From: Galbibacter mesophilus
Lineage (GTDB): Bacteria > Bacteroidota > Bacteroidia > Flavobacteriales > Flavobacteriaceae
DNA: 64,000 nucleotides
Direction of reading: 5' to 3'
Assembly: GCF_023721415.1 (NCBI RefSeq)
Contig: NZ_JAMQVC010000001.1
Span: 1,302,001-1,366,000 of the forward strand
The notes beneath the pieces are model-generated. The model was given only the letters and a program-made list of their open reading frames with translations, ran no database searches and was not told the DNA's origin. Shown one piece after another: positions 31,348 to 61,620 of the stretch (positions are counted from its first letter, which is position 1; each line of letters opens with the position of its first letter). Made by a program: the position numbers and the translations under genes.

Positions 31348-32433
31348 ATGAAAACAACATTTCTATCAATAGCAGTATGCTTTATGACCATTGTGGTTAC
31401 CAGTTGCAAACAGCAGAAAAAAGAGGGTAAAACGACAACAGAAGATACCGTTGCCGCTACAGAAGATAATAAAGTAAGCGTTACCAAAGATAATTTTGCC
31501 AGGGCCATGTGCGATTTAGCCATGCAAAAAGAGTTTGCCCAAGGGGGCGACAATGCTTTTAATCATCACCGAAAGCCAATGCCGCTTGATGAGCAGCCCG
31601 CTCCGCTTATGAACAGGGATACCAACTATTCCTTCGCCATATTGGACGGTAGAGGAGATGTAGCCATTACTTTACCGGAAACAGATGGCCGCTATATGTC
31701 TTTACACGTGATGAACCACGACCACGTAACCGCCTTTGTATATTATGGCCCGGGTCGCTATGTAATTCCTGCCGATAAAACTACTGATTTCTTTTATGCC
31801 AACGTTCGCATCCAAATAGATGCCAGCGATCCCGATGATGTCAAAAAGGTAAATGACTATCAAGATCAGCTGAAGATTGAATTTTTGAATGGTTATCAAC
31901 CCAAATCATTCCAGGTGACCAATTGGAATATGGAAGAGTTTGAACAACAGCGCAAGCATTATGTGAAAATTGCTCAAGAGGAAGGCGTAAGGGGAACCAT
32001 GGGAACTTTAGACGATCCGGTTTCCACGGAAGATAGAAACCGAGGGGTTGCAATTGCTACTGGACTTTTGCCAGATGAGGATGCGGTGTACTTTACTGAA
32101 AGGTATGATGTGGAAAAAGATAAAACCTACAAAGTGACCTATCAGGTACCTGAGATGCGGGATGAGGAACTTGGTTTTTATTCCGTGACCATCTATGGGG
32201 CAGACCAGCATTTAAAAACCGATGAGGGATCTATTATTAGTAATGATAAGATTAAGCTTAATCCCGATGGAAAAACTTTCGATCTCTATTATGTGCCGCA
32301 AGACCAATTTGCGAAGGCAGATTATGCCAACAAAGTATTGGTGCCATCAAAACCATTCTGGATTTGTTTTAGGGTATACATCCCAAGCGAATCGGTAATC
32401 GATGGGGGCTATGTTTTACCCGAAGTAAAATAA
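31348..32433 (+). CDS. DUF1254/DUF1214 lipoprotein (first copy)
   Basis: The 361-residue protein has a lipoprotein signal ending VVTSC (C20). An N-terminal DUF1254-like part follows (DGRGDVAITLPETDGRYMSLHVMNHDHVTAFVYYGPGRYVIP), then a C-terminal DUF1214-like part (YQVPEMRDEELGFYSVTIYGADQHL, and PFWICFRVYIPSESVIDGGYVLPEVK). These domains pair in exported proteins of unknown activity. It is shorter than the second copy at 34.9 kb. It leads the sulfatase block (31.3-40.4 kb), all on one strand. Confidence 0.78.
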   Translation: MKTTFLSIAVCFMTIVVTSCKQQKKEGKTTTEDTVAATEDNKVSVTKDNFARAMCDLAMQKEFAQGGDNAFNHHRKPMPLDEQPAPLMNRDTNYSFAILDGRGDVAITLPETDGRYMSLHVMNHDHVTAFVYYGPGRYVIPADKTTDFFYANVRIQIDASDPDDVKKVNDYQDQLKIEFLNGYQPKSFQVTNWNMEEFEQQRKHYVKIAQEEGVRGTMGTLDDPVSTEDRNRGVAIATGLLPDEDAVYFTERYDVEKDKTYKVTYQVPEMRDEELGFYSVTIYGADQHLKTDEGSIISNDKIKLNPDGKTFDLYYVPQDQFAKADYANKVLVPSKPFWICFRVYIPSESVIDGGYVLPEVK

Positions 32434-32546
32434 GTTATGAAATGCCCATCAACAAAAATTTAAAATTACCGATAGATTAACAGGGCTTTCAATCTGCCTA
32501 CCGGCAAGACGGGTCTGACCAATAAAGAACAACTAAATATTAGGAG

Positions 32547-34883
32547 ATGAAAACAACCATTTTAACACTATCAGCTGTAGCGATTTTTCTAGCTACCATC
32601 AGTCAATTACAAGCACAGGAAAAAAACAAACTTCCCTATGACGATCAGGAGTTTCATGGTAAAATAGGCCGTACTTATAAGGATTCTGAAATGGACTGGC
32701 CAGAATATGTAGAGCCCGAAGAAGGAGCTCCCAATGTGGTGGTTATTTTGCTGGACGATGTAGGTTTTGGTATGATTAGCACTTATGGCGGTCCTGTGCC
32801 TACGCCACATTTGGATTCATTGGCCAGTGAAGGCCTGCGCTACAACCGCTTCCACACCACGGCTATATGTGCGGCCACCCGAGCAGCGCTAATTACAGGT
32901 AGAAATCACCACAACGCCTCCAGCGGTTTCTTGCCGGAGTGGTCAACAGGCTTTCCAGGCTATACTTCGATGATTCCAAGAAGTACCACGCCTATCAGCA
33001 AGGTGATGAAATACAATGGGATGAACACGGCTTGGTTTGGTAAAAACCACAACACGCCCGACTGGGAAACTTCCCCTGCTGGACCTTTCGATCGCTGGCC
33101 AACAGGGATGGGATTTGATTATTTTTATGGCTTCAATGCCGGGGAGACCGACCAATACAATCCTGTAATCTTTGAAAACACCCTTCCGGTCGAGCCAGAA
33201 ACGACTCCGGAAGAAGGCTATCACTTTATGGCCGATATGACTGACAAGGCCATCGACTGGATGAAATTGCAAAAGTCCATTTCTCCAGACAAACCCGTCT
33301 TTATGTATTTCGCCCCAGGGGCCATCCATGCGCCACATCACACACCTAAAGAATGGCGGGATAAGTTTAAAGGAAAGTTTGACCATGGCTGGGACAAGCA
33401 ACGTGAAATCACTTACGCGCGCCAAAAAGAAATGGGCATTATTCCGGCAGATGCTAAACTGTCTGCCCGAAATGAAAATATAAAAGCCTGGAATTCACTT
33501 TCAGCCGATGAGCAAAAGTTTTATGCACTTTTACAAGAAAACTACGCTGGCTATATGGCCTATACAGACCATGAAATCGGTCGTTTGTTGCAGGCGATAG
33601 CACAGTTGCCCGATGCTGAAAATACTTTGATAATGTACATTGTAGGCGATAATGGTGCCAGTACCGAAGGCGGTTTGGAAGGAACATTAAATGAAATAAA
33701 AGCCTTAAACGGTATTCAAAGTACACTAAAAGAAAACTTGTCTAGAGCTGATGAAATTGGTGAGCCTGGTTCTGAGCCACATGTGCCCGTAGGTTGGGGT
33801 CTGGCAATGAATACCCCTTTCCCCTGGGCAAAGCAAGTGGCTTCTCACTTTGGCGGCAGCCGAAACCCCATGGTGGTTTCTTGGCCTAAAGTGATCAAAG
33901 ACAAAGGCGGTATACGTTCCCAATTTTTGCACGTAATTGATGTGATGCCTACCGTCTTGGAAGCTACAGGCATGAAAGCGCCTGAATACATAGATGGCGT
34001 GAAGCAAAAACCACTAGATGGTGTTTCTTTTATGAGCACATTCACTAATGCCAATGCTCCTGAAGTGCGTACCACGCAGTATTTTGAAATTTTGGCCAAC
34101 CGTGCCATTTACCACGAAGGATGGGTTGCAGCACACCAGCATACCAAACCATGGAGAATGGACTTGGCTCCTGGCTTTGAAAACCAAACTTGGGAATTGT
34201 ACAATATCGAGGAGGACTTTTCTGAAGCCGTAAATGTAGCTGACCAATACCCGGATAAGCTTAAAGAACTGAAGGATGTGTTTGAAAAAGAAGCGAAAAA
34301 ATATCAGGTATATCCTTTGGATGACCGTGGAGCACAAAGACTTACCGTGCCCAAACCTTCATTGATTGAAGGTAGAACCTCCTTCACCTTTTACGAAGGC
34401 GCGGTTCGACTGCCAGAGACCGTAGCACCAAACACCAAAAACACTTCTTGGACTATGGAGGCCATGCTTGAAACAGCCCCCGGAAACAAAGACGGTGTAG
34501 TAAATGCCATAGGTGGATCCAGTGCTGGATACGCATTGCATGTTAAAAATGGATATCCAACCTTTACTTACAATTATTTTGAAGCAGCAGTAACCGACAT
34601 TAAGTCCAGCAAAAAGCTGCCCGATGGTCTCGCTTCTATTAAGGTAGACTTCCAATATGATGGAGGTGGAGCCGGAAAAGGAGCCGATGTAATCTTGTAC
34701 ATCAACAACGAGAAAGTAGCAGAAGGCCGATTGGACGCCACTGTACCCGCTCGTTTCGGAATTGATACCTTCGGGGTAGGTGTAGATACGGGCTCACCAG
34801 TAACAAAAAACTATTCAGTGAACGAATTTCAGGGGCGAATAGCCGAGGTGAATATTGATTTGAAGCCAAAAAACAAACCATAA
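32547..34883 (+). CDS. Periplasmic arylsulfatase-like protein with CAATR motif
   Basis: The 778-residue protein has a Sec signal peptide (ending about LQAQ, residue 24) and an alkaline phosphatase-fold sulfatase domain. The metal aspartates are D70-D71 in ILLDDVGFG. The sulfatase signature is ICAATRAALITGRN (C108, R112), where the usual proline is alanine. That cysteine is converted to formylglycine by a maturation enzyme. The block NHHNASSG and GRN, and the overall size, resemble large AtsD-type arylsulfatases. The last 130 residues look like a beta-sandwich (concanavalin-like) domain. The substrate is unknown. Confidence 0.9.
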   Translation: MKTTILTLSAVAIFLATISQLQAQEKNKLPYDDQEFHGKIGRTYKDSEMDWPEYVEPEEGAPNVVVILLDDVGFGMISTYGGPVPTPHLDSLASEGLRYNRFHTTAICAATRAALITGRNHHNASSGFLPEWSTGFPGYTSMIPRSTTPISKVMKYNGMNTAWFGKNHNTPDWETSPAGPFDRWPTGMGFDYFYGFNAGETDQYNPVIFENTLPVEPETTPEEGYHFMADMTDKAIDWMKLQKSISPDKPVFMYFAPGAIHAPHHTPKEWRDKFKGKFDHGWDKQREITYARQKEMGIIPADAKLSARNENIKAWNSLSADEQKFYALLQENYAGYMAYTDHEIGRLLQAIAQLPDAENTLIMYIVGDNGASTEGGLEGTLNEIKALNGIQSTLKENLSRADEIGEPGSEPHVPVGWGLAMNTPFPWAKQVASHFGGSRNPMVVSWPKVIKDKGGIRSQFLHVIDVMPTVLEATGMKAPEYIDGVKQKPLDGVSFMSTFTNANAPEVRTTQYFEILANRAIYHEGWVAAHQHTKPWRMDLAPGFENQTWELYNIEEDFSEAVNVADQYPDKLKELKDVFEKEAKKYQVYPLDDRGAQRLTVPKPSLIEGRTSFTFYEGAVRLPETVAPNTKNTSWTMEAMLETAPGNKDGVVNAIGGSSAGYALHVKNGYPTFTYNYFEAAVTDIKSSKKLPDGLASIKVDFQYDGGGAGKGADVILYINNEKVAEGRLDATVPARFGIDTFGVGVDTGSPVTKNYSVNEFQGRIAEVNIDLKPKNKP

Positions 34884-34910
34884 TCCAATTTTAGAAATAA
34901 ACACAGAACC

Positions 34911-36446
34911 ATGGATACTAAATTTTTAAGAGTAGGATTGTTGTTGTCCATAGTGGTGGTAACAACTTTTTCCTGCAAGAACAGCTCAAAAGAAAGTAAG
35001 GAAGACAAGGCTACCTCTGAGGCAACAGAAAAGCAATTTTCCATTGAAAGCAATGATGCTAATGATCCCTTCAAGGTAGTACTGCCAGCAAAACCTGAAA
35101 AAGTCACACCAGAGTATGCCCGGGAACTGGGGAAGTTTGCCTACGTATGGGGCTGGCCAATGGTCAATATGCTCAATAGAAGAACACAAATAACACAAGC
35201 GCCCGAGCCGAGTTATCTAAACAATGTATTGCCTGTTTCGCCACAAGGCCAATTGGCTATGCTAAATGATTATATTTTACCAGAAGAAACCTTTGTTACC
35301 TGTCCCAATCAAGATGTGGTGTATGGTTTAGGTTTTTTTGATTTAAACACTCAGCCGGTGGTTCTACAAGTGCCAGATTTTGGAGACCGCTTTTGGGTGT
35401 ATGCTATCTACGATCAGCGCACCAACCAAGTAGGAGAGCTAGGAACGCCATACCAGACCGAAACGGGGTTTTATTTGCTAGTCGGACCTAATTGGAGTGG
35501 CGAAACACCAGAAGGCATCAATGGCGTAATCAAAAGCCCAACAACCTTGGCCAACATTATTCCACGTGTATTTCAAAACGATACCGAAGCAGACAACGCA
35601 GCACTTCAACCCACAATCAATCAAATTGTGGCATACCCGCTTCCAGAATTTGACGGCACAATGAAGACCATTGTTTGGAAAAACATTCCATCTATTCAAG
35701 GTCCTGCCTCCGATGGAAAAGAAACCAAATGGGTGGTTCCGGAAAAGTTCTTTGATGCCAACCAATTAGGCAAGGTATTGGAAATTTTGCCTCCTCTGGA
35801 TGGCGAGGAAGCTTTGTATGAACAATTAAAAGAGTTGTTAGCAGCAGCGAAGAATGATCCTACCATTAAAAGGGCATTGGTGGAAACGGCAGTGAAAACA
35901 GAAAAAGATGTCATTGGAAGTTTCTTCCTGTGGAAAAACAATGGGGTTGATGCAGGCAATGGTTGGAACCGCTCCTACTACAGTGCAGATTGGGATGGGT
36001 CCGGAGATTACAACTACTACGATAGAACTGCTACTGCAAAATCAAATATGTTTGATAACAGGCCCAATGAAACGCAATATTACTACACGGATAAAACCTC
36101 TGGTGGTGAGCAACTGGATGGCAACAACAACTACACCGTAACTTTCAAAAAAGGGGAAGAACCACCTGTTGAAGGGTTTTGGTCTTTGACTTTATATAAT
36201 AAAAATCATCTATTTTCTAGTAACGAGTTGAATCGCTATTCTGTTGGGACAAAAAGTAAAGGTCTTGAAAGAAACGAAGATGGTTCATTGACCATCTATA
36301 TCGGTTCTGAATCTCCAGGTGAAGACAAGAAAAGCAACTGGTTGCCGGCTCCAGCCGAACACTTTTCGTTATACATCAGGGCCTATTGGGGGAAAGAGGG
36401 CGTAACTGAAGGAACTTGGATTCCTCCTACCATTGAAAAATACTAA
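34911..36446 (+). CDS. DUF1254/DUF1214 lipoprotein (second, full-length copy)
   Basis: The 511-residue protein has a lipoprotein signal ending TTFSC (C22) and a low-complexity linker. DUF1254 follows (ELGKFAYVWGWPMVNMLNRR, then NQDVVYGLGFFDLNTQPVVLQVPDFGDRFW), and then the C-terminal DUF1214 (PPVEGFWSLTLYNKNHLFSSNELNRYSVG, then YIRAYWGKE). It is 27 bases after the sulfatase stop, so probably co-transcribed. The pairing with a shorter paralogue in the same block suggests the two work together on one ligand. Confidence 0.9.
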   Translation: MDTKFLRVGLLLSIVVVTTFSCKNSSKESKEDKATSEATEKQFSIESNDANDPFKVVLPAKPEKVTPEYARELGKFAYVWGWPMVNMLNRRTQITQAPEPSYLNNVLPVSPQGQLAMLNDYILPEETFVTCPNQDVVYGLGFFDLNTQPVVLQVPDFGDRFWVYAIYDQRTNQVGELGTPYQTETGFYLLVGPNWSGETPEGINGVIKSPTTLANIIPRVFQNDTEADNAALQPTINQIVAYPLPEFDGTMKTIVWKNIPSIQGPASDGKETKWVVPEKFFDANQLGKVLEILPPLDGEEALYEQLKELLAAAKNDPTIKRALVETAVKTEKDVIGSFFLWKNNGVDAGNGWNRSYYSADWDGSGDYNYYDRTATAKSNMFDNRPNETQYYYTDKTSGGEQLDGNNNYTVTFKKGEEPPVEGFWSLTLYNKNHLFSSNELNRYSVGTKSKGLERNEDGSLTIYIGSESPGEDKKSNWLPAPAEHFSLYIRAYWGKEGVTEGTWIPPTIEKY

Positions 36447-36579
36447 ACGTAACCAGCTTAAAAAACAATATAGGGATTTAAACTAAATGGTTTTTACAAT
36501 CAAAATAGGTAACTAAAAGAATAATAAATATTGCAACTACTCAATTTCAGTAGAAACATCAGTAAAAACAAAAACAACT

Positions 36580-38451
36580 ATGAAACCAACACACACCATA
36601 CTTGCACTGCTTACATTTTTTGCAGTGGTAAGTTGCAATCAAGAAACGAAAAAGGAAACTTCAGACACTGTCAATATGGTTGAAAAGGCAGATTCCAAAT
36701 CTTCCAAAATAAAAGAAAACCCAGATAAGAACTGCTTTTTTGGAGATTTGCACTTACATACAGCCCTGTCGGTCGATGCCAATGTATTTGGCGCTACTTT
36801 AGGACCGGAAGCTTCCTATAAATACGCCTTAGGAGAAGAGGTAGAGTATCTGGGGCAAAAGGTTAAGCGCCATGCACCGCTCGATTTTTTGGCTGTAACA
36901 GATCATGCCGAGTATTTAGGTATTATGGTAGAAGTGCGTAAACCGGGTAGTGAGATTTCAAAAACAGATCTTGGTAAATTACTTACTAGCTCAGACCCCG
37001 ATGAACGCAATAAGGCTTTTGCATTCTTATCCGGTGCTGTAGCTTCCAATACACGTGTTCCCGACTTTGAAAAACCAGAGGTGTTAAGTAATAGCTGGAA
37101 GCATGTAATTGAAACAGCGGAACGTTATAATGATCCAGGGAAATTCACTTCTTTGGTAGGGTTTGAATGGACATCCGCTCCGGGAACAGCCAATAAGGCA
37201 CAGCAAAACATACACCGCTGTGTAATTTTTAAAGGAGCCGATGTACCTGAACAAACATACTCTTCTTTTGATTCTCCAGATCCTGAAGATTTATGGACGT
37301 ACCTGGAGAAGGCTCGTGCAACTGGAGATGATGTCATTGCGATTCCGCATAATGGAAACATAAGTAACGGATTGATGTTCGATACAAAAACGCTAAGTGG
37401 TGAGCCACTTACAAAGGAATATGCTATACGAAGAATGGCCAACGAGCCGCTTACTGAAATAGCTCAGGGGAAAGGGCAAAGCGAAACGCATCCTGAATTA
37501 TCACCTAACGATGAATTTGCCGATTACGAAATTTATGAAACCCTACTAGGTTCACAGACGACCGCAAAATATCAAACCGGCAGTTACGTTCGTCAGGCAT
37601 ACGGAGTAGGTCAGGAATTACAGGAAAAACTTGGGGTGAATCCATTTAAATATGGTTTAGAGGGCGGTACGGATTATCATTCGGCATTATCTACTACAGA
37701 TGAAGATGGTTATCCAGGTTCTCATGGGCTCACCGATGATCAAAGAAACCCGGAAAAGCTTTTTACAGAAGCTACAGGTACCATAGGAGAGCCTCCTGTG
37801 AAGTTAGCTGCGGCCGGACTTACCGGTGTTTGGGCAGAAAGTAATACCAGAGAGAGCATTTTTGAGGCATTAAAAAGAAAAGAATGCTTTGGAACTTCTG
37901 GCGTAAGAATGAAAGTACGCCTGTTTGCAGGCTGGGATTATACTGCAGATTTATTAAAGCAAAACAATTGGATAAAACAGGCGTACGCTAAGGGTGTGCC
38001 CATGGGCGGAGATTTGCCTTTAGCATCTGGCAATCCTAAATTCTTGGTGCAGGCGTTAAAAGACCCAAACTCTGGAAACCTTGACCGCATTCAAATAATT
38101 AAAGTGACCACCAAAAATGGTAAATCATCAGAAAAGGTGTTTGACGTGGTTTGGAGTGGAGACCGAAAACGTGATGAAAAAGGAAAAGTACCTGCGGTGG
38201 GCAATACAGTTGATATGAAAACAGCTACCTATACCAACACCATTGGTTCTACAGAATTAATCGGCTATTGGGAAGACACGGACTTCAATCCAGATGCTTA
38301 CACCACTTACTATGCAAGAGTACTGGAAATACCAACACCAAGATGGAGTACCCAACTTGCTGTTAAAAATAATTTACCGGTAAGCAAAACGGTTCCGCCA
38401 ATTATACAGGAAAGGGCATGGACAAGCCCAGTTTGGTACAGTCCTAATTAG
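36580..38451 (+). CDS. DUF3604 lipoprotein (PHP-like metal site)
   Basis: The 623-residue protein has a lipoprotein signal ending AVVSC (C19). It carries a PHP-type phosphoesterase-like motif set: GDLHLHTALSVDA (H58, H60), AVTDHAEYLG (D108, H109), a later IPHNGN and GGTDYHSA. Such residues bind metals in PHP enzymes. DUF3604 proteins often lie near sulfatases and DUF1254 genes in marine bacteria. The substrate is unknown; a hydrolase role is inferred. Confidence 0.85.
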   Translation: MKPTHTILALLTFFAVVSCNQETKKETSDTVNMVEKADSKSSKIKENPDKNCFFGDLHLHTALSVDANVFGATLGPEASYKYALGEEVEYLGQKVKRHAPLDFLAVTDHAEYLGIMVEVRKPGSEISKTDLGKLLTSSDPDERNKAFAFLSGAVASNTRVPDFEKPEVLSNSWKHVIETAERYNDPGKFTSLVGFEWTSAPGTANKAQQNIHRCVIFKGADVPEQTYSSFDSPDPEDLWTYLEKARATGDDVIAIPHNGNISNGLMFDTKTLSGEPLTKEYAIRRMANEPLTEIAQGKGQSETHPELSPNDEFADYEIYETLLGSQTTAKYQTGSYVRQAYGVGQELQEKLGVNPFKYGLEGGTDYHSALSTTDEDGYPGSHGLTDDQRNPEKLFTEATGTIGEPPVKLAAAGLTGVWAESNTRESIFEALKRKECFGTSGVRMKVRLFAGWDYTADLLKQNNWIKQAYAKGVPMGGDLPLASGNPKFLVQALKDPNSGNLDRIQIIKVTTKNGKSSEKVFDVVWSGDRKRDEKGKVPAVGNTVDMKTATYTNTIGSTELIGYWEDTDFNPDAYTTYYARVLEIPTPRWSTQLAVKNNLPVSKTVPPIIQERAWTSPVWYSPN

Positions 38452-38538
38452 AACTAATTTAACATACAAAAACAGGCTTATATTTATTAATACGAGCCTA
38501 TTGTTACTATTTTATTTAACCTCTAGAAAAAAGAATAT

Positions 38539-39420
38539 ATGACGCGATGGATAAAAGAACCGCTCCTGCATTTTGTAGTGCTTGGAGCACTTATATTTGT
38601 AGTCTACAGTTTAGTGAATACTTCAGAAGATAACGACCGAAAAATTGTAATAGATGATGATAGATTGAAACACATAAATGCCCTATATGAAATTCAATGG
38701 GATCGCCCTGCAACACCCGAGGAGTTAAGGGCGTTAGTGGAGATATACATTCGTCAAGAAGTGTTGTATCGAGAAGCCCTTCGCATGAATTTAGACCATA
38801 ACGATGAGGTGGTGAAACGTCGTTTGTCGCAAAAAATGGAGTTTATAAGTAGCGATTTAACCAAAATGGTGGAGCCTATTACTGAAACTAAATTGCAAGC
38901 CTACTTTGAAGAGAATAAAGAGGATTATCGGGTTCCAACAGCCTATTCATTTTCACACATTCTTTTGTCAAACCAAAATCATATTAATCCAAAAGAAGAT
39001 GCATCAAAACTTTTGGCCTCTGTGGATGTTGCGCAATATGAATCTTTAATTAGGGAAGGAGATCAAACCACGCTTTCTCTATCATATAAAGATGCAAGTG
39101 GCTCCATGATATTAAAAGAATTGGGCGCAAAATTTTATAGCAGCTTAGATACATTGCCACTCAGTCAATGGACCGGCCCTATAAGTTCAGGTTTTGGCAT
39201 CCATTTGGTATTTATCTCCAACAAAACCAACACCCACATTCCAGAACTTGCCGAGGTGAAAAATAAAGTAGTAAGGGATTATGAGTATGCAACAGAAATA
39301 GCCACAAGAGATGCTGTATATAACGAATTGAAAAAGAATTATGAAGTGATTATTGAATTGGATGATTTGAATCAATCTGAAAAAAACAAATTGTACGCTA
39401 ATTTAAAATTACAAAAATGA
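38539..39420 (+). CDS. Membrane-anchored peptidyl-prolyl isomerase (parvulin type)
   Basis: The 293-residue protein has one N-terminal anchor (FVVLGALIFVVYSLV). A SurA/PrsA-like helical part with ALRMNLDHNDEVVKRRLSQKM follows, then a parvulin-like region (TAYSFSHILLSN, then GFGIHLVFISNK). It would help fold exported proteins, and the block makes several large ones. The stop overlaps the start of the HupE-like gene by 4 bases, so translation is coupled. Confidence 0.82.
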   Translation: MTRWIKEPLLHFVVLGALIFVVYSLVNTSEDNDRKIVIDDDRLKHINALYEIQWDRPATPEELRALVEIYIRQEVLYREALRMNLDHNDEVVKRRLSQKMEFISSDLTKMVEPITETKLQAYFEENKEDYRVPTAYSFSHILLSNQNHINPKEDASKLLASVDVAQYESLIREGDQTTLSLSYKDASGSMILKELGAKFYSSLDTLPLSQWTGPISSGFGIHLVFISNKTNTHIPELAEVKNKVVRDYEYATEIATRDAVYNELKKNYEVIIELDDLNQSEKNKLYANLKLQK

Positions 39421-40403
39421 AATTATCCAAACTTTTATTTTTCGTTATCTTTTTAATGTTTTTTAGTGTAAAGGGTTGGAGCCATGAAATACGTCCTGCA
39501 TACCTTCAAATAACGCAAACAGAAGAAAATAGCTATCAATTACTATGGAAAGTCCCTAGACGGGGGGATTTGGTGATAAGTTTGCGGCCAGTTTTTCCAG
39601 AAGGCTTTACATTGAAAGAAACCGAGCGTTATAGGATAACAGGCGATGCTAAGATATTTAATTTTGAATTAGAGGCTGACCGACCGTTAGCAGGAGAGCA
39701 AATTAGCATTCATAATTTAAACAAAACATTGGTAGATGTACTGGTAACAGTTAAGTACCTGAACGGAGAAAAGGTGACACTTATAGTAAAACCCGAAAAT
39801 CCACAAGTAACACTACCTGGGAAAACGGAAAAATGGGAAGTAGTAAAAACCTACACTATTTTAGGTGTTGAACACATTCTTTTTGGGATAGATCATCTTT
39901 TATTTGTTCTCGCATTGATTATTATAACCAAAGGGTTTGGTAAAATAGTAAGAACTATTACTGCTTTTACCCTTGCACATAGTATTACGCTAAGTATGGC
40001 CGTGTTGGGGGTTGCCAATTTACCGGGACCACCTGTAGAAGCAGTTATTGCATTGAGTATTGTTTTTTTGGCGGTTGAGATTATTAAGAATATTCAAGGA
40101 AAAGAAACGTTAACAAGCAAAAAGCCTTGGTTAGTTGCTTTTACATTCGGACTTTTGCACGGGTTTGGTTTTGCCGGAGCTTTGGCAGATGTTGGATTGC
40201 CGCAAACCGAAATTCCGTTGGCGTTGGCCTTTTTTAATATAGGTGTAGAAGTAGGGCAAATTTTATTTGTAGTAACAACGCTTGCAGTTATTTGGTTGCT
40301 GCAGCGCTATAAAAAATGGCCGATATGGTTAAAAAAAGCACCCGCGTATGCTATTGGTACACTTGCAGCCTTTTGGGTAATAGAGCGTATTTTACTTTTT
40401 TAA
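39417..40403 (+). CDS. HupE/UreJ-like membrane protein
   Basis: The 328-residue protein has a signal peptide, an exported N-terminal domain of about 120 residues (SHEIRPAYLQITQ) and a C-terminal HupE-like part with six or so spans. The motifs are GVEHILFGIDHLLFVLAL, FTLAHSITLSMAVLG and LLHGFGFAGALADVG. Family members have been linked to nickel or cobalt entry; here the His-rich GxEHILFGxDH motif is kept. It is coupled to the isomerase gene and followed by a His-rich small protein and a TonB receptor, which fits a metal-related role. Confidence 0.85.
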   Translation: MKLSKLLFFVIFLMFFSVKGWSHEIRPAYLQITQTEENSYQLLWKVPRRGDLVISLRPVFPEGFTLKETERYRITGDAKIFNFELEADRPLAGEQISIHNLNKTLVDVLVTVKYLNGEKVTLIVKPENPQVTLPGKTEKWEVVKTYTILGVEHILFGIDHLLFVLALIIITKGFGKIVRTITAFTLAHSITLSMAVLGVANLPGPPVEAVIALSIVFLAVEIIKNIQGKETLTSKKPWLVAFTFGLLHGFGFAGALADVGLPQTEIPLALAFFNIGVEVGQILFVVTTLAVIWLLQRYKKWPIWLKKAPAYAIGTLAAFWVIERILLF

Positions 40404-40513
40404 TCCCTTGAAAATAAAGAAAACCTTCTGTGTGCATTACAAATAATTAAACCGTCGTTATAGAAACCGCATTTGTATATATAAAAAGTTTTATCCTACG
40501 GGCTTTTATAGGC

Positions 40514-40933
40514 ATGGTGGTGCTTGCTTATCTTTTTATGCCATTGAAGAATCAGGTGTTTACGGTAGTTCATTACTTATCCCACGAAATTGAAAGTATT
40601 TTTAATGCGCACCATCATCATATAAAAATGCATACCCATAACTTTCAACTGCCAAATAGCATTCATCATCAGCATCAACATTCACATGTTGCTGAGCATA
40701 CTCATAGGCACGATACCCTAGCTTTGTTGGCGTCTATTTTTTCTTCAGAAGAAGATGGGAATAAAAAAGAAGGTGTTTTAACCTATTATCAACTGGATAA
40801 ACATTTTCATTCAAGTATTTATAGGATTTCCCATAAAAGCTCACTTTTTCAAAAGGAAAACAAACGGATAATAACTTTCAATTATTTTTCTATAACTATT
40901 CCCATAATCGTTCCACCTCCCCAATTTTCATAA
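40514..40933 (+). CDS. Small His-rich membrane protein
   Basis: The 139-residue product has a short hydrophobic N-terminus (MVVLAYLFMPLKNQVF) and then histidine clusters between about residues 33 and 66: HHHH, HHQHQHSH and HTHRHD. It likely binds transition metal. The frame stays open upstream of ATG 40514 with more hydrophobic residues, but without a better start. It lies just before the TonB receptor and after the HupE-like gene. Its function is inferred only from composition. Confidence 0.62.
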   Translation: MVVLAYLFMPLKNQVFTVVHYLSHEIESIFNAHHHHIKMHTHNFQLPNSIHHQHQHSHVAEHTHRHDTLALLASIFSSEEDGNKKEGVLTYYQLDKHFHSSIYRISHKSSLFQKENKRIITFNYFSITIPIIVPPPQFS

Positions 40934-41036
40934 GCTATTTTTTTAAATGAACTACAGCCTCATTCAGGAGGGTGTAAATTGCAATGTATTCAATGTACGT
41001 CATGGGTAAGCCATGTCTAATTTTAAATTAATAATT

Positions 41037-43265
41037 ATGAAAAAAATAATGGCAGCATGTTTATTGCTTGCTACGAGTATATCTTATGCCCAAACCATAC
41101 GAGGAAAAGTAATTAATGAAAAGGGAGAACCGTTGCCGGATGTGGGGGTATTCAACAAAACTTCCGGCAGCCATTCACATACCAACGTGGTGGGCGATTA
41201 TTCATTAGATAGAACTTCCGTCGGCGATTCCGTTCTATTTTCCAGCTTAGGATATGGTTCGCAATATTTGGTAATTGCACAAGAAGATTTTTCAAGTGAA
41301 AAAAATATGGTGCTAAGACCTACAAATATTTCTTTGGATCAAATTGTGTTGGTGTCTGAAGTAAACTCACTGAGCCGATTTGTAGACGTTGATATACAAA
41401 CCAATCCCGTGAAATCATCACAAGAAATTTTAAGAAAAGTACCGGGGTTGATTATTGGGCAACATGCCGGAGGCGGAAAAGCAGAGCAAATATTTTTGCG
41501 TGGTTTTGATATTGACCACGGTACCGATGTAGCAATAAATGTAGATGGACTACCGGTTAACATGGTGTCGCATGCGCACGGACAAGGGTATTCTGATTTG
41601 CATTTCGTAATTCCAGAAACTTTGGAAGACATCAACTTTGGGAAAGGACCTTATTATGCCGATCATGGAGACTTTACCACAGCAGGGTATGTAGATTTAC
41701 ACTTGCGAAAATCTATTGATAAAAGTTTAATTTCCATGGAAGTTGGGCAGTTCAACACAAGCCGATTTGTAGGTATGCTAAAAGTTTTGGATACTGAAAA
41801 AAGCAATGCTTATGTGGCTTCAGAATTGTACCTAACCGATGGTCCTTTTGATTCGCCCCAAGATTTTAACCGAATAAATGTAATGGGGCGTTACAATTAT
41901 AAATTGGCCAACAACGAAGACCTTTTGGTTACCTTGTCCCATTTTCAAAGTAAATGGGATGCTTCGGGGCAAATACCCCAAAGAGCAGTCGATCAAGGCA
42001 TCATTGGAAGATTTGGTGCTATAGATGATACGGAAGGCGGGCAAACCAGCAGAACGAATTTACTGGTGAACCACATAAAATTATTGGATGACAACCAAAC
42101 TGTAAAAACAAAAGCTTACATCTCTCAGTACAATTTTGAACTGTTTTCTAATTTTACGTTTTATCTAGACGATCCTGTAAACGGAGATCAAATTCAGCAA
42201 GAAGAAAGTAGGTTGATTGTTGGTGCGGAAAGTGTTTATGAAAAAGCAAACATTTCTTTAACCGAAGGTATTGATTTTGATTACCAAGCCGGGGTAGGAT
42301 TTCGTTACGACAATGTAGACGATGTACAACTTTCCCATACGCTCAACAGAAAAGAGATACTGGAAAGGCTTGCTTATGGCGATGTAGATGAGGTAAATAC
42401 CTATGGGTTTGTAAATACGGAATTTAAAATGGGCAAATGGTTGATTAATCCTGCGCTAAGACTCGATTATCTTAAATTTGATTATTACAACAAGTTAACA
42501 GAAACCTACGATAACAACAGTGAAAGCAAAGTGGCTCTTAGTCCGAAGCTTAACACGGTTTACTCCTTCAATTCCAATTGGCAGGTATTTTTAAAAACGG
42601 GTCTCGGTTTCCACTCCAACGATGCACGGGTAGTAGTTGCTAACGAAGGAGAAGATATTTTACCAACCGCTTATGGGGCCGATTTTGGAGCCATTTATAA
42701 GCCTTTTAGCAAGCTTGCCTTAAATGCTGCCTTGTGGTGGTTGTATTTAGACCAAGAGTTTGTTTACGTTGGAGATGCCGGTATTGTAGAGCCTAGTGGA
42801 GAAACAAGAAGACTGGGGGTTGATGTTGGAGCTCGCTACCAAGCATTGCCTTGGTTATATATTTATGCGGATGCCAATTTTAGTAAGGGGCGAAGCGTAG
42901 GTGAGCCTAATGGAGCAGATTATATACCATTGGCGCCCGATTTTACTTCGGTTGGTGGTTTACTAGTAGATAATTTAGGGAACTTTTCTGGAAGTTTAAC
43001 CTATAGATATGTTGACGACCGTCCTGCAAACGAAGACAATTCCATTGTTGCTGAGGGATATTTCGTTACGGATTTCAATATAAATTATTCGTGGAAAAAT
43101 TGGACATACGGTATTGTTATTGAAAATTTATTTGATACGGAATGGAACGAAACCCAATTCGCTACCGAAAGCCGTTTGTTTGATGAACCTGCACCGGTAG
43201 AAGAAATTCATTTTACACCCGGAACTCCTTTTTATTTAAGAGGGAAAGTGAGTGTTGCTTTTTAA
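41037..43265 (+). CDS. TonB-dependent outer-membrane receptor
   Basis: The 742-residue protein has a Sec signal (MKKIMAACLLLATSISYAQ). A carboxypeptidase-regulatory-like domain follows (IRGKVINEKGEPLPDVGVFN, with HSH), then a plug domain (QEILRKVPGLIIGQHAGGG, then FLRGFDIDHGTDVAINVDGLPVNMVSHAHGQG) and a 22-strand barrel ending in SVAF. Histidines cluster in the plug (SHAHGQGYSDLHF). It imports an unknown ligand through the outer membrane using TonB. ATG 41037 is preferred over 41013 because it gives the signal peptide. A long palindrome follows at 43294. Confidence 0.9.
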   Translation: MKKIMAACLLLATSISYAQTIRGKVINEKGEPLPDVGVFNKTSGSHSHTNVVGDYSLDRTSVGDSVLFSSLGYGSQYLVIAQEDFSSEKNMVLRPTNISLDQIVLVSEVNSLSRFVDVDIQTNPVKSSQEILRKVPGLIIGQHAGGGKAEQIFLRGFDIDHGTDVAINVDGLPVNMVSHAHGQGYSDLHFVIPETLEDINFGKGPYYADHGDFTTAGYVDLHLRKSIDKSLISMEVGQFNTSRFVGMLKVLDTEKSNAYVASELYLTDGPFDSPQDFNRINVMGRYNYKLANNEDLLVTLSHFQSKWDASGQIPQRAVDQGIIGRFGAIDDTEGGQTSRTNLLVNHIKLLDDNQTVKTKAYISQYNFELFSNFTFYLDDPVNGDQIQQEESRLIVGAESVYEKANISLTEGIDFDYQAGVGFRYDNVDDVQLSHTLNRKEILERLAYGDVDEVNTYGFVNTEFKMGKWLINPALRLDYLKFDYYNKLTETYDNNSESKVALSPKLNTVYSFNSNWQVFLKTGLGFHSNDARVVVANEGEDILPTAYGADFGAIYKPFSKLALNAALWWLYLDQEFVYVGDAGIVEPSGETRRLGVDVGARYQALPWLYIYADANFSKGRSVGEPNGADYIPLAPDFTSVGGLLVDNLGNFSGSLTYRYVDDRPANEDNSIVAEGYFVTDFNINYSWKNWTYGIVIENLFDTEWNETQFATESRLFDEPAPVEEIHFTPGTPFYLRGKVSVAF

Positions 43266-43734: not shown

Positions 43735-44940
43735 ATGGCGAGTATAAAGGTTATATTGCGTAAAAAGCAGCTCTCAGATGGAACATATCCGGTTTGCTTA
43801 CGTGTTATCAAAGATAGAAAAACAAAATATTTTAAAACTATCTATAATGCCCTTCCCAAGCATTGGGACGAACAGGCAGGAGCATTTAATAAAAGCTACC
43901 CCAATTACATCCAAAGCAATCGGCTTTTGCTTAAATTCAAAGATAGGGCGTTAAAAATATATTCAGAATTAGATATTGAAAAAGATAATTTTTCTTTGGA
44001 AGATTTCGAAAAGCATTTTAGAATAGAGGCTAATCCCATTAAGCAAAATGTTTTCAATTTTTGGGATGAAATTATCCATGAAATGATTGATGCCGGTAGA
44101 ACTGGCAATGCAAGGGCTAATAGGGACTCTTACAATTCCGTCAAAAAGTTTTATCGAACAAAATCCCTTAATTTTCAAGATATCACCCATACATTTTTAA
44201 ATAAGTACGAAGTATTCTTAAGAGCAAGAGGTGGCACCGATGGAGGGATTGGTGTTCGTATGCGAGCAATTAGGGCATTATATAATATGGCTATTGAAAG
44301 GAATATCGTTAAAAGGGAGCTTTATCCTTTTGATGCTTATAAAGTATCTAAATTAAAAGGTAAGGGAATAAAAAGGGCATTGAATATTGAGGAAATACAA
44401 AGAATTATCAATCTTGATGTTTCCGAATACCCACATTTAACTGATAGCAAAAATTACTTCGTATTTAGTTTTTACACCAGGGGTATGAATTTTGCTGATA
44501 TGATGAAGCTAGAAAAGAAGGACGTTTCAGAGGATAGGATATTTTATACTAGATCCAAGACCAAGGGGAATTTTATTATAAAAATACTTCCTCCAGTTAA
44601 AACTATATTGAATTATTACAGTACGGTAAGTACGACCAAATATGTTTTCCCTATACTTTTAAAGGATAAAATGTCCCCAAGCCAGATAGAAAACCGAAAA
44701 TCCAAAACCCTTAAAAAATACAATAAAAACCTGAAAGAAATCGCAAAAGTATGCAAAATAGATAAGTCTATCAGCAGTTATGTCGCCAGACACAGTTTTG
44801 CCAATTGCTTAAAGCAGAAAGGTATTGCAACGGACATAATAAGCGAATCAATGGGGCATCAAAATGTAGCGATAACGCAAGCATATTTAAAGGAGCTAGA
44901 TAGTTCGGTTTTGGATGAAGCATGTGAGTTATTGTTATAA
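43735..44940 (+). CDS. Tyrosine recombinase (integrase)
   Basis: The 401-residue protein has an N-terminal arm-binding-type part (ASIKVILRKKQLSDGTYPVCLRV), a SAM-like core-binding part and a catalytic domain. Catalytic residues are visible: R249 (FYTRGMNFADM), R352 (YVARHSFAN), H375 (GHQNVAITQAYL) and Y384. It is complete, so probably active. It should integrate the island into tRNA-Asn, given the adjacent attachment fragment. It is the only + strand gene of the island in view. Confidence 0.95.
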   Translation: MASIKVILRKKQLSDGTYPVCLRVIKDRKTKYFKTIYNALPKHWDEQAGAFNKSYPNYIQSNRLLLKFKDRALKIYSELDIEKDNFSLEDFEKHFRIEANPIKQNVFNFWDEIIHEMIDAGRTGNARANRDSYNSVKKFYRTKSLNFQDITHTFLNKYEVFLRARGGTDGGIGVRMRAIRALYNMAIERNIVKRELYPFDAYKVSKLKGKGIKRALNIEEIQRIINLDVSEYPHLTDSKNYFVFSFYTRGMNFADMMKLEKKDVSEDRIFYTRSKTKGNFIIKILPPVKTILNYYSTVSTTKYVFPILLKDKMSPSQIENRKSKTLKKYNKNLKEIAKVCKIDKSISSYVARHSFANCLKQKGIATDIISESMGHQNVAITQAYLKELDSSVLDEACELLL

Positions 44941-45060: not shown

Positions 45061-46791
45061 TTAATGAACACTGTCAATAGTTGAACCGCAGTTAAGCATT
45101 GCCTCGCCATAATACGGATTTAAAATTTCTTTTGTGCTACTTATCCAAACTGCACCATGGTTGTTATGGGCCATCGGGCATTTTTGAATATACAATTTCT
45201 GGTTCACATTATCGAGATTCTTTATCAAAGGAACCATGTTTTGGTTTAAAACAACAAATTGTTCCCGTTGATTTTCAATATCAGTAGTTCCCAAAATGGT
45301 AGTAAGCGCTTTTTTAATTTCCATTAAATGGAGACTTTGCAATCTTTCCATTTCAGATTTGGGAATCGCATTGATTTGCTCCAAGGTAAGCTGTGCGAAA
45401 GTGTGAATATCTTCAATTTTTTCACTTACAAAAGCATCTTTCATCTGTAAATAAGGTTTTACACTTTTTCTGAATTTCTTCCCTGCCGCTGCGGAAAGTT
45501 CTACTTTCGTTTCAGAAATAGGAGATACATTCTTAGATTGGTTCATCATTGATTTTTTACCCTGCAATTGCGCTGCCGCATCTACGGTAAAAGTACCATT
45601 GGTTACGATTTCTTCACCATTGTTTATTCCCGATAAAATAATATACCCATCTTGATACCGATTACCCAAAACTACTTCCCGCATTTCAAAAACTGGTTCT
45701 TTGGGATTCGTCTTTACATACACCAAAGAGCGCTCCCCTGTCCACATAACCGAACTAGCTGGAATAATAAGGTGTGAACTTTTATTGACATCTTTCGCCT
45801 CAATTCTACCGGTAACAAACATTCCAGGTTTCAATAACCCGTTGTTATTATTAAGAATCGCCCGTACAGTTACCGTTCGGGTTTGAGTATTAAGAACAGG
45901 ATCGACAAACGAAATATTGGCATCAAATTCCTTATCGGGGTAGGCGGTGCTGATAACCTTTACCTTTTGACCTTTACTAAATTCTGAAATTTGGCTTTCG
46001 TAAGCATCAAATTCTGCCCAAACTGAAGCAAGGTTTGCTGTTTGTAAAATTGCCATTTCATCTGTTATGTGTCCACCTTCAGACACGTTTAAAGCAGTTA
46101 CGACACCATCAATATGGGAATAAATTGTAAGGCTTGTTTTAACCGTTCCCGATTTTATTACCTGGTTCACCTCATCGGAAGGGATCCTCCAAATTTTAAA
46201 TTTATTTTTAACAGCTTCAAAAAGCTGTGGTTGGGATTCTTTCAATTTGGCAGCCGTAATAAGCTCTTGTTGGGCAGCTACCAATTCCGGCGAATATACA
46301 ACCGCAATTGCTTGCCCTTTTCGCAAGGTCTCTCCCAAAGTTTTCACGTATAGTTTCTCAATTCTACCATTGAAATGGGCAGACTGTGTAAAAGTCTCAT
46401 TTTCATTTGGTTTGATTTTTCCAGAAAGAGAAATCGTATTTTCACCATTCTTGGAATGGCTACCAACAATAATCGTTTCAATATTGGCCAATGCCACAGC
46501 GTTCTTGGACATTTTAATTTCGTTGGGAGCCAATCCATCAGCACCCGATTCCGCTGGAATTAAATCCATCCCACAAATTGGGCAATCTCCCGGCTCGGGC
46601 TGCATAATCTGCGGATGCATCGAGCATGTCCACATTTGATTTTTCCCGGCTGCATCATGGTCGTGATTTGTAATCGCTTCGGAAGTATTCTCAACAGATT
46701 TTATTTCTTCGGAAGTACCGCCAAAAATAAGCCAACCACCAAACAGTCCCACAAGGACCGCAATGGCGATGTATATTATATATTTATTCAT
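45061..46791 (-). CDS. cusB: CusB-type RND adaptor with DUF3347 tail
   Basis: The 576-residue periplasmic adaptor links the CusA-type pump to the TolC-type channel. It has an N-terminal anchor, a heavy-metal-binding domain (WTCSMHPQIMQPEPGDCPICGMDLIP) and the HlyD-like hairpin and barrel (LYVKTLGETLRKGQAIAVVYSPELVAAQQEL). A C-terminal DUF3347 part ends YIQKCPMAHNNHGAVWISS and NPYYGEAMLNCG. It lies at the far end from CusA and TolC (about 9.3 kb away from TolC), which is unusual. It follows the DUF305 gene by 6 bases. Confidence 0.9.
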   Translation of the reverse strand: MNKYIIYIAIAVLVGLFGGWLIFGGTSEEIKSVENTSEAITNHDHDAAGKNQMWTCSMHPQIMQPEPGDCPICGMDLIPAESGADGLAPNEIKMSKNAVALANIETIIVGSHSKNGENTISLSGKIKPNENETFTQSAHFNGRIEKLYVKTLGETLRKGQAIAVVYSPELVAAQQELITAAKLKESQPQLFEAVKNKFKIWRIPSDEVNQVIKSGTVKTSLTIYSHIDGVVTALNVSEGGHITDEMAILQTANLASVWAEFDAYESQISEFSKGQKVKVISTAYPDKEFDANISFVDPVLNTQTRTVTVRAILNNNNGLLKPGMFVTGRIEAKDVNKSSHLIIPASSVMWTGERSLVYVKTNPKEPVFEMREVVLGNRYQDGYIILSGINNGEEIVTNGTFTVDAAAQLQGKKSMMNQSKNVSPISETKVELSAAAGKKFRKSVKPYLQMKDAFVSEKIEDIHTFAQLTLEQINAIPKSEMERLQSLHLMEIKKALTTILGTTDIENQREQFVVLNQNMVPLIKNLDNVNQKLYIQKCPMAHNNHGAVWISSTKEILNPYYGEAMLNCGSTIDSVH

Positions 46792-46797
46792 AGGTTG

Positions 46798-47289
46798 TTA
46801 TTTTTTGTTCTGTAATCGTTCAATCATTACTTTCATTTCGGCAATTTCCTTGCGCTGTGCCTTAATGATTTCTTCTGCCAGTTTCTTCACCTCTGGGTCT
46901 TTGATATCCGCACGCTCGCTTGTTAAAATTGCTATTGAATGATGGGGAATCATTGCTTTCATCCAAAGCACATCGCCCACAGTTGATTTTTGGTCACGTA
47001 CCAGTCCCAACGCACCTACAAATAGAACAATACTTCCCAAAACAATGGCGATATTCTTCTTTTTATTTTGATACATCCCACGCATTGCGACAAACATTAT
47101 GATGGCCATTGCTGCGATGCCTAAGCAACTCATATAAAATCTTGTCAGACTGAAATATACGTGGTCAATAGCATATGTATTCAAGTACATTGTTATGTAC
47201 ATTGCTACGAAGGATGCTGCGAGCATTCCTACAAACTTTGTGTAATTACCTTTTTTCATTTCATCGTGATTGTTTTCTTTTGAATTCAT
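46798..47289 (-). CDS. DUF305-family membrane protein
   Basis: The 163-residue protein has three or so spans and the DUF305 motif VLWMKAMIPHHSIAIL with two histidines, followed by a helical region that ends EIAEMKVMIERLQ. The motif probably binds metal (often copper). It lies between copA and cusB in the same run. Confidence 0.85.
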   Translation of the reverse strand: MNSKENNHDEMKKGNYTKFVGMLAASFVAMYITMYLNTYAIDHVYFSLTRFYMSCLGIAAMAIIMFVAMRGMYQNKKKNIAIVLGSIVLFVGALGLVRDQKSTVGDVLWMKAMIPHHSIAILTSERADIKDPEVKKLAEEIIKAQRKEIAEMKVMIERLQNKK

Positions 47290-47309
47290 AATTTTTGGTT
47301 TTTTAGTTG

Positions 47310-50042: not shown

Positions 50043-50120
50043 TTTTAAAATCTTTAAAAGGTTAAACAGCACAAAGTATGCAGTATACCGCTCAATAGCT
50101 TTAACGATTCTGGTTAAAGC

Positions 50121-50678
50121 TTATACAATTCTGTCCAACGTTTTTCTATTCCATTTTTGCAATTTTCGATACTCGGTCATCGATATTCCCGTAACACTTT
50201 TAAACTGTTTGGCCAAGTGGCTACCTGCACTATAATCCAATGCGTAGGCTATTTCCGAAAAGGTCATTGTTTCCATCTGCAAGAGTTCCTTGGCTTTTTC
50301 GATTTTCAAACGGATAAGATATTTTTCAACGGTTATTCCCGTAGTAGCACTGAAAGTTTTGCTAATAATCGAATAATCCGTTTTTAATCGATGTGAGAGA
50401 AATGAAGATGTGTTTTCCTCAAAACCCTTTAAGTTTTCAACTGCACCAATCAAAAGGGATTTTAAGTTTTCGACTAATTCAGAAGTAGGATTATCAATGA
50501 TTTCAAATCCATTTTGGTTCGCTATTTCCTGAATGACACTTTTACTGACCGAAATATCATCCAGAACTACCAATTCACCCAATTCAACTGAGACGATACC
50601 GATTCCGGCGTTTTCCAATTCTTGTTTCAGGACGGTTTTACAGCGGTCGCAGACCATATTTTTAAGTTTGATTTTCAT
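50121..50678 (-). CDS. AraC-type regulator with HMA-like N-terminus (first copy)
   Basis: The 185-residue protein starts KLKNMVCDRCKTV, with C10 and C13 as an HMA-like metal-binding pair. A short middle part follows, then an AraC DNA-binding domain (TFSEIAYALDYSAGSHLAKQFKSVTGISMTEYRK). A metal-sensing one-component regulator of the module is inferred. It lies 78 bases upstream of copA. A paralogue is at 55.5 kb. Confidence 0.85.
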   Translation of the reverse strand: MKIKLKNMVCDRCKTVLKQELENAGIGIVSVELGELVVLDDISVSKSVIQEIANQNGFEIIDNPTSELVENLKSLLIGAVENLKGFEENTSSFLSHRLKTDYSIISKTFSATTGITVEKYLIRLKIEKAKELLQMETMTFSEIAYALDYSAGSHLAKQFKSVTGISMTEYRKLQKWNRKTLDRIV

Positions 50679-50682
50679 ACCG

Positions 50683-51912: not shown

Positions 51913-51986
51913 ACGCTTTACTTTTTGTGCCTGTCACGGGAAGGGTTACTAAGCAATCATCATACTTCCCTTCCCACAGCAGTACT

Positions 51987-52442
51987 TTATTCCAAGCTAT
52001 CTTTTAATTTTTTCATATAGTCAATTACTGCTATTTTGTATGCCTCGGAAAGAATGGCATCTCTATGAATCAGTGTATAGCTATTCAAAGGCATTTCACC
52101 ATTTTCAATCTGGTTTATGATAGACCGTAATTTGCTATTTTTCCTTCGATCGGAAAGGTTGCCCCATTCATTAAAATTGAGTTCTTCCTTTCCTTCTTTG
52201 ATATGGTCTTCTAAAAACGAGGCAACAGGTTGCACCTTATTGTACCAAGGATAGTCTGTATTGTCGCTGTGGCAATCATAGCAGGAAACCTGCAACGATT
52301 GTTCTACCATTGCAGGGACATTGTTTACGAGCATAAAATCGGTTTGTGGCACGGTTTCACTTCGGTTATAGTCCACTTGAAAAAACTGAACGACCACAAA
52401 GGCAATCAATGCTATCCACGCTATGATTTTTACTATTTTCAC
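51987..52442 (-). CDS. Haem-binding-domain protein
   Basis: The 151-residue protein has an N-terminal anchor (IIAWIALIAFVVVQFFQ) and a cytochrome-like site CYDCH (C54, C57, H58) in a haem-binding domain (WYNKVQPVASFLEDHIKEGKEELNFNEWG). The start is GTG 52442, directly next to the DUF3347 stop. It may pass electrons to the multicopper oxidase or sense redox state; this is inferred. Confidence 0.82.
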   Translation of the reverse strand: MKIVKIIAWIALIAFVVVQFFQVDYNRSETVPQTDFMLVNNVPAMVEQSLQVSCYDCHSDNTDYPWYNKVQPVASFLEDHIKEGKEELNFNEWGNLSDRRKNSKLRSIINQIENGEMPLNSYTLIHRDAILSEAYKIAVIDYMKKLKDSLE

Positions 52443-53030: not shown

Positions 53031-53054
53031 TTCTATGGATATTAAAGTTAATAA

Positions 53055-55436: not shown

Positions 55437-55510
55437 AGTTTTCTCATAGTTATTGTTTAACAAAAATATTATTGACACTCAGCTTGTTGTGTTATAATTT
55501 TGGTTTATAT

Positions 55511-56077: not shown

Positions 56078-56079
56078 AG

Positions 56080-61046: not shown

Positions 61047-61195
61047 ATAAAATGATAATTAGACAGTTATACAATGGTGGCTTGTTGCAATTCTGAAAGT
61101 TGAATACAACAAAACGTGCCCAGAACGGGATTATCGTTGGGCTTAATGCCGTTCCTATGTTCCTATCACATCGGAATCGGACTAATGTCTAAAAA

Positions 61196-61615: not shown

Positions 61616-61620
61616 TGATT

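Follow-up and report, generated by a model that had tools for sequence, protein, structure and literature searches.

A DUF3604-parvulin-HupE gene trio as the recurring core of a three-module block of exported proteins in Galbibacter mesophilus

In a 64,000-nucleotide stretch of the Galbibacter mesophilus genome (here called the window; contig NZ_JAMQVC010000001.1, positions 1,302,001 to 1,366,000 of the forward strand), eight neighboring genes, named A to H in the following, raise the question of whether they form one functional system or several. A sequence-only reading had taken the whole run as a single uptake and processing system for a sulfated or metal-bound compound. We find that the eight genes are three joined modules: a core of genes D, E and F, encoding a DUF3604 protein, a parvulin-type peptidyl-prolyl isomerase (PPI) and a HupE-type permease; a module of sulfatase and DUF1254 genes (A to C); and a pair consisting of a His-rich protein and a TonB-dependent receptor (G and H).

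The trio was identified by its recurrence. We surveyed 299 genomes of the family of the window's host (numbered with G; loci are numbered with L), with homologue cut-offs of E ≤ 1e-60 for the ~330-amino-acid HupE type and the receptor type and E ≤ 1e-90 for the sulfatase type; the p-values for co-occurrence ignore phylogeny, except in a repeat by genus. DUF3604 is present in 25 genomes and the ~330-amino-acid HupE in 22, with both in 21 (p=3e-27). Counted by genus, 18 are shared between the 19 with this HupE and the 21 with DUF3604 (p=6e-23), and the sole family genome carrying the ~330-amino-acid HupE without DUF3604 is G237. Since HupE_UreJ_2 as a whole family occurs in 273 of the 299 genomes, the link to DUF3604 is specific to the ~330-amino-acid type. 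Apart from the host, 24 family genomes have DUF3604; searches by tblastn in 20 regions, taken from 20 of these genomes, showed DUF3604, PPI and HupE genes adjoining in most of them. Full-length homologues of the sulfatase, DUF1254 and receptor genes turned up only occasionally.

Profile searches were extended to 102 loci, comprising 80 named loci (the best 80 of at least 577 confirmed DUF3604 relatives), the 20 family regions and two viral contigs; several loci end at contig ends and some stretches are short, so that the absence of a gene there is weak. All three genes were found in 40 of the named loci, DUF3604 with HupE in 4, DUF3604 with PPI in 3, DUF3604 with PPI and a ~720-amino-acid variant protein in 2, and DUF3604 alone in 31. 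In the family regions, 13 have all three genes, 3 the variant and 4 DUF3604 alone. In 47 of the 102 loci the three genes are co-directional and fit into 8 kb, mostly in the order DUF3604-PPI-HupE (41), more rarely as PPI-HupE-DUF3604 (5) or PPI-DUF3604-HupE (1). Taxa with the full trio include Sphingomonas, Novosphingobium, Rhizobium, Pseudomonas, Accumulibacter, Edaphobacter, Flavobacteriaceae, Saprospiraceae and a metagenome-assembled genome of Planctomycetota; it is thus seen in Pseudomonadota, Bacteroidota and others, and on rhizobial plasmids. The expectation that these families recur together in marine bacteria was therefore correct for some of them but not in being marine, given rhizobia, Sphingomonas and Accumulibacter, and of the eight genes it is DUF3604, PPI and HupE that stay together, while sulfatase and DUF1254 genes seldom adjoin them and the receptor is separate.

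Where DUF3604 stands alone, the permease is often found at another place in the genome. We tested 14 genomes out of the 31 lone-DUF3604 named loci, and all 14 have a full-length ~330-amino-acid HupE outside the examined stretch; the same holds for the four lone family regions (G017, G098, G145 and G246). One PPI-HupE pair may therefore serve distant enzymes. A search of viral contigs with a single query returned nothing, and an alignment query returned the two loci mentioned above, both with DUF3604 alone. One viral-classed contig with a DUF3604 gene (L136) may be host DNA.

The same arrangement is found on plasmids. Of 60 plasmid DUF3604 records listed (78 in total), 51 are accompanied at up to 6.5 kb by a HupE among the matches listed. 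For the remaining 9 no HupE is among the matches listed, yet one of them, L184, is followed by a HupE match at a distance of a few kb. Conversely, 14 plasmid HupE records had no DUF3604 record, and 6 of these were inspected; five have a DUF3604 gene annotated, a short one in L188, and L186 has none. On the Sinorhizobium meliloti plasmid pCpl, the genes follow one another as DUF3604-PPI-HupE with overlapping ends, and this order is also present on a second S. meliloti plasmid, on a Rhodobacter plasmid, on a Ruegeria plasmid, on a Roseibium plasmid with a DUF1254 gene nearby, and on a Neorhizobium plasmid with one small gene in between. In Rhizobium indicum, PPI-HupE-DUF3604 is followed by genes for a CobW GTPase and a protein of metallo-beta-lactamase fold. 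The short DUF3604 gene of L188 is accompanied by PPI, HupE and two CobW-type GTPases, one of which scores 576.7 bits against the 600-bit cut-off for the zinc chaperone ZigA; in all, CobW-type GTPases adjoin the E-F pair on two plasmids (L180 and L188). In Ruegeria sp. YS9, DUF3604 is present without PPI or HupE in the examined stretch. In L178, a conjugative plasmid of S. meliloti, only a few kb separate the trio and the conjugation genes virB10-virB11.

Within the trio, PPI and HupE are the most closely linked partners. Distance correlations over 48 trios are r 0.82 for PPI-HupE, 0.48 for DUF3604-PPI and 0.35 for DUF3604-HupE, each reached by 0 of 999 Mantel shuffles, which carry no correction for species descent. 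Moreover, the third partner can be exchanged: in three loci (L098, L168 and L169), a gene for an exported arginase-family protein lies directly upstream of PPI-HupE. Two of them, L168 (in G237) and L169 (a second copy in G025), have no DUF3604 beside the pair, and their arginase-family protein carries a lipobox or signal peptide; in L098 (Pseudohalioglobus), the exported arginase-family gene, PPI and HupE are followed by DUF3604. A Novosphingobium locus (L179) is supportive only: its arginase-family gene encodes a signal peptide but is on the opposite strand, ~4 kb away from PPI-HupE. The arginase-family gene of L055 was rejected as a client, as its product has no signal peptide, and the annotated neighbors of a Streptomyces agmatinase, taken as a control, include no PPI and no HupE. 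The high congruence of PPI and HupE and the swap to arginase-family genes suggest a PPI-HupE unit with a changeable client, the exported metallohydrolase; based on its position directly after exported arginase-family genes, we read PPI-HupE as a helper pair for exported metallohydrolases.

In other loci, it is the permease that is exchanged. The four DUF3604 genomes without the ~330-amino-acid HupE (G084, G223, G266 and G291) carry PPI and a ~720-amino-acid protein, followed downstream by an FtsX-type permease and a ZnuA-like protein. In G291 (L167) an ABC ATPase gene lies between, and the entire row is located downstream of DUF3604 on one strand. Across all loci, the ~720-amino-acid protein occupies the place of HupE beside PPI in L039, L048, L049, L066, L081 and L167, together with the FtsX-type and ZnuA-like genes. 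The L167 copy matches no Pfam family; judged by eye the ~720-amino-acid protein is a membrane protein, as signal peptides and lipoboxes were also judged by eye throughout, and it is possibly a new metal transporter.

We next consider what the three proteins may do. No PDB relative of gene D was found by sequence. Its AlphaFold model (predicted local distance difference test 90.2, predicted template modelling score 0.90) was compared with the PDB by Foldseek, and only the two chains of 3e38, the PHP-like phosphoesterase BVU_3505, reach E ≤ 0.001. The top match has E 1.9e-7 and probability 1.00, but only 10% identity, template modelling (TM) scores of 0.30/0.49 and a root-mean-square deviation of 11, and the DUF3604 protein is larger; because of the low global TM-scores, we take the match to cover the catalytic part only. 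The PHP metal-ligand pattern is HxH, D/H, H, E, H, H, DxH. Ten residues of gene D fit this pattern (H58, H60, D66, D108, H109, E196, H212, H257, D365 and H367); they are invariant in all 49 rows of alignment A2 and in the 26 rows of alignment A1, except for D108, which is kept in 25. By model and conservation, gene D thus encodes a predicted PHP-type metallohydrolase, which would act as a hydrolase with several metal ions. Multiple DUF3604 copies occur in some loci (five genes in L063, four each in L051 and L068), which suggests substrate diversification.

Gene E contains a complete Rotamase_2 domain behind its N-terminal anchor. Gene F encodes a permease of the HupE_UreJ_2 family, with an N-terminal region modelled as a beta domain, an invariant HX3GXDH motif, and other His and Glu positions of the membrane part that do not vary; by the description of the family, it may transport metal. 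The HupE/UreJ-2 class is described as metal (nickel) permeases with a metal-binding N-terminal domain (PMC12537917), which supports the metal link considered in the sequence-only reading, and PMC5557971 also presents the HupE family as metal permeases. For N-terminal His domains on HupE/UreJ-2 permeases, binding of copper and nickel was measured and metal capture proposed (Franco Cairo et al. 2025; PMC12537917). The probable mature N-terminus of gene F is likewise a His (SWS/HEIRP; cleavage site by eye). We link the system to metal based on the ZnuA-like protein beside the variant, the CobW-type GTPases on two plasmids, and the invariant HX3GXDH of gene F; the metal would most likely be zinc or nickel. 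An import of a small organic or phosphate/sulfate product by HupE, instead of metal, would fit the tight link between HupE and hydrolase too, but it is hard to reconcile with the invariance of HX3GXDH and the other His and Glu residues of the membrane part and with the description of the family as metal permeases (PMC12537917; PMC5557971), and we regard it as quite improbable.

Based on these observations, we propose, with about even confidence, that E and F work as a dedicated pair to secure folding and metal for exported metallohydrolases and that the trio is the core of the block. In this model, the gene D product would be an exported PHP-fold hydrolase needing several metal ions. The gene E product would be a membrane-tethered periplasmic helper that folds the enzyme at the membrane, and the gene F product, a permease of the HupE type whose N-terminal domain is exported, would manage the metal of the enzyme. 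The pair would be portable, being associated mostly with DUF3604 enzymes and in a few cases with exported arginase-family enzymes. A more far-reaching version, to which we attach only tentative belief, is that PPI-HupE is a general portable maturation device, in which the permease hands metal to a periplasmic enzyme and the tethered parvulin folds it. To our knowledge, the metal supply of secreted metalloenzymes outside the cytoplasm is a largely open question; if this version is true, their metal loading has a dedicated machine comparable to the cytoplasmic HypA/HypB.

The trio might instead serve metal scavenging: the exported hydrolase could split an organic compound so that a metal, or a group that binds metal, is set free, with HupE importing the metal and the parvulin only folding the hydrolase. 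The description of HupE/UreJ-2 proteins as nickel permeases, whose N-terminal domain is proposed to fish for metals (PMC12537917), speaks for such scavenging, as do the ZnuA-like protein and ABC-type permease at the place where HupE is missing and the nearby CobW-type GTPases. Arginase-family clients, however, are not expected to free metals, and the several DUF3604 copies in L063, L051 and L068 suggest diversifying organic substrates. We consider scavenging possible, with rather less than an even chance.

A number of observations weigh against a dedicated helper pair that supplies folding and metal. HupE proteins have been described as permeases for uptake; as such they would not supply a periplasmic enzyme directly. 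The DUF3604-HupE correlation is the lowest of the three, and DUF3604 occurs without E or F in the examined stretch of 31 of 80 named, 4 of 20 family and 2 of 2 viral loci. In addition, the pair itself has been found in other company, with no DUF3604 or arginase gene in the stretch: beside a peptide/nickel-type ABC transporter in L186, and beside a spermidine synthase, a 2OG-Fe(II) oxygenase and a copper chaperone in L181. The predicted N-terminal residue of the HupE relatives is His in 42 of 48, but Asp in 6. Finally, the window HupE has no significant sequence match to any PDB chain and no structure match with E ≤ 0.001, and 9GCE, which represents the Ang-1 fold, is absent among the 50 listed of 1734 structure matches.

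Two described systems resemble the helper pair in part and count as precedents for it. Anglerase (Ang-1)-HupE/UreJ-2 proteins (PMC12537917) likewise have an exported beta domain ahead of a PF13795 membrane part, and the N-terminal His predicted for most relatives of the window HupE. Their frequent neighbors are different, namely DUF4198, IndA-like and PfkB proteins besides proteins without assigned function, and the words DUF3604, PpiC, rotamase and isomerase are absent from the main text of that paper; as no PDB chain matches the window HupE by sequence, its N-terminal domain is a candidate Ang-1 domain. In the metformin hydrolase operon (PMC11399263), which holds hypA, hypB and hupE besides two genes for ureohydrolase, a nickel-dependent arginase-family metalloenzyme has HupE directly downstream. 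There, activation proceeds via HypA/HypB, no parvulin is named in the operon as described, and DUF3604 is of an unrelated fold.

In the open literature searched, DUF3604 appears only as an incidental mention in a table of mutants in one paper, PF12228 is not mentioned, and, with supplements and subscription journals outside the search, none of the titles listed for HupE with PPI or with arginase deals with this operon, the metformin hydrolase paper being the one of relevance. The earlier statement of knowing no defined function agrees with this search. The trio is a widespread and little-described system that gives DUF3604 a first functional frame and, since a form on an S. meliloti plasmid exists, opens the metal supply of secreted enzymes to tests by deletion.

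We then asked how the remaining genes relate to the trio. Gene-B-type sulfatases are present in 26 of the 299 genomes, 16 of which have DUF3604 (p=6e-14) and 20 DUF1254 (p=8e-17); DUF1254 is found in 35 genomes, 18 of them shared with DUF3604 (p=4e-14). Both are therefore tied to DUF3604 by genome, seldom in cis. Sulfatase and DUF1254 genes share a stretch in L148, L151, L152, L156, L162, L175 and L176; some of the sulfatases there are only distantly related to gene B. Another cluster is seen in G245, where two sulfatases, DUF1254 genes (among them a 66% homologue of gene A, in L043), DUF3604, PPI and HupE lie within ~20 kb, the receptor not among them. On a Ruegeria plasmid, TonB/ExbBD genes are followed by the trio and a sulfatase gene, and L148 (G084) holds two DUF1254-type genes, a distant sulfatase and the receptor/His-rich pair within ~12 kb. 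The sulfatase/DUF1254 module probably acts on substrates related to those of the trio.

Gene B has the sulfatases 7all and 1hdh (arylsulfatase) as best PDB matches, from which it differs by ~200 extra C-terminal residues and by the motif CAATR. CxPxR is the activation motif of formylglycine sulfatases; it is not found in gene B, whereas its five closest relatives, 73-75% identical, have CGPSR, CSPTR or CGPTR. The host genome encodes proteins of the formylglycine-generating enzyme (FGE)-sulfatase family PF03781, and the anaerobic maturase TIGR03942 was not found in it. Given CAATR and this set of maturases, the activation of gene B is uncertain. By sequence, gene C is related to VPA0106 and VPA0735 (PDB 3u07, 2p3y and 3vb9), which are named uncharacterized or hypothetical and offer no function to transfer. 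A DUF1254 gene listed in iron data of Caulobacter (PMC3751524) gave no lead.

Homologues of receptor H occur in 125 of the 299 family genomes and in 13 of the 25 DUF3604 genomes, which is no enrichment (p=0.30); the receptor was rejected on this ground as a general part of the trio system. In the 13 genomes having both, it adjoins the trio in 3 (the window's host, G262 and G196) and lies elsewhere in 10. Homologues of the His-rich gene G adjoin the receptor in other genomes, including loci without DUF3604. Genes G and H are thus a separate pair and an independent neighbor of the trio. In L144, L145 and L146, homologues of receptor H have a longer HupE class (432 amino acids in L144) at a distance of ~7 kb; in L144 the genes in between resemble those for nonribosomal peptide synthetases. 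A polysaccharide utilisation locus consists of a SusC/SusD pair and carbohydrate-active enzymes; this assignment was rejected, as no SusD or glycoside hydrolase family is present among the eight genes.

These distributions bear on the idea that all eight genes form one uptake-and-processing system for a sulfated compound. Their common direction and short gaps agree with it, as do the co-occurrence of sulfatase and DUF1254 with DUF3604 by genome, the clusters of G245, L148 and the Ruegeria plasmid, and the receptors of G262 and G196. The unenriched and mostly distant receptor argues against it, and so do the location of sulfatase and DUF1254 genes, mostly elsewhere in DUF3604 genomes, and a drop in G+C content within the block. 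We judge a single conserved system unlikely; the modular organization with the trio as core describes the block better.

The genes of the block are listed in Table 1. All eight lie on the plus strand, as the sequence-only reading had it, and their products are mostly exported, with lipobox-like Cys residues in genes A, C and D, signal peptides in B, F and H, and an N-terminal membrane anchor in E. The gene families named earlier agree with Pfam, except that gene A scores for DUF1254 alone and DUF1214 is found only in gene C.

Table 1. Genes of the block in the window (positions in nucleotides of the window)
Gene	Position	Strand	Product and module	Support
A	31348..32433	+	DUF1254 lipoprotein-like, 361 aa (amino acids); sulfatase/DUF1254 module	Pfam DUF1254, 38 bits
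B	32547..34883	+	exported sulfatase, 778 aa, motif CAATR	Pfam Sulfatase, 201.8 bits
C	34911..36446	+	DUF1254+DUF1214 lipoprotein-like, 511 aa	Pfam
D	36580..38451	+	DUF3604 lipoprotein-like, 623 aa; core module	Pfam DUF3604, 683 bits; PHP-type metallohydrolase by model
E	38539..39420	+	membrane-anchored parvulin (PPI); core module	Pfam Rotamase_2, 50.8 bits, full domain length; PDB 3rfw, E 2e-5
F	39417..40403	+	HupE_UreJ_2 permease, N-terminal beta domain; core module	PF13795, 161 bits vs cut-off 24.5
G	40514..40933	+	His-rich small protein; pairs with gene H	no Pfam match
H	41013..43265	+	TonB-dependent receptor, 750 aa; pairs with gene G	Pfam TonB plug

From A to H, the intergenic gaps are 113, 27, 133 and 87 bases, an overlap of 4 (E-F), and 110 and 79 bases. 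Promoter-like sites across the block are no more frequent than in shuffles, and terminator-like sites number 18 against a shuffle mean of 13.9 (sd, standard deviation, 4.6), so that these scans decided nothing; the RNA family search returned a single tRNA. In the host genome of 3.77 Mb, genes A and C are the only DUF1254 matches and gene D is the sole full-length DUF3604, with one weak partial match elsewhere. We regard the block as accessory, since neither of the other two genomes sampled from this genus gave a DUF3604 match. The G+C content is 0.44-0.45 over 32-36 kb (approximately genes A to C), 0.41 over 36-38 kb and ~0.37-0.38 over 38-44 kb (approximately E to H), a profile that fits a mosaic block.

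Downstream of the block, a minus-strand run (45061-63664) encodes a CusB-like adaptor and an ArsP-like permease and, judged by eye, multicopper-oxidase-like and CzcA-like proteins; it looks like a heavy-metal island. Between block and island lies a tyrosine integrase gene (43735-44940); L155 has a 60% homologue of it, ~1.7 kb past a homologue of receptor H.

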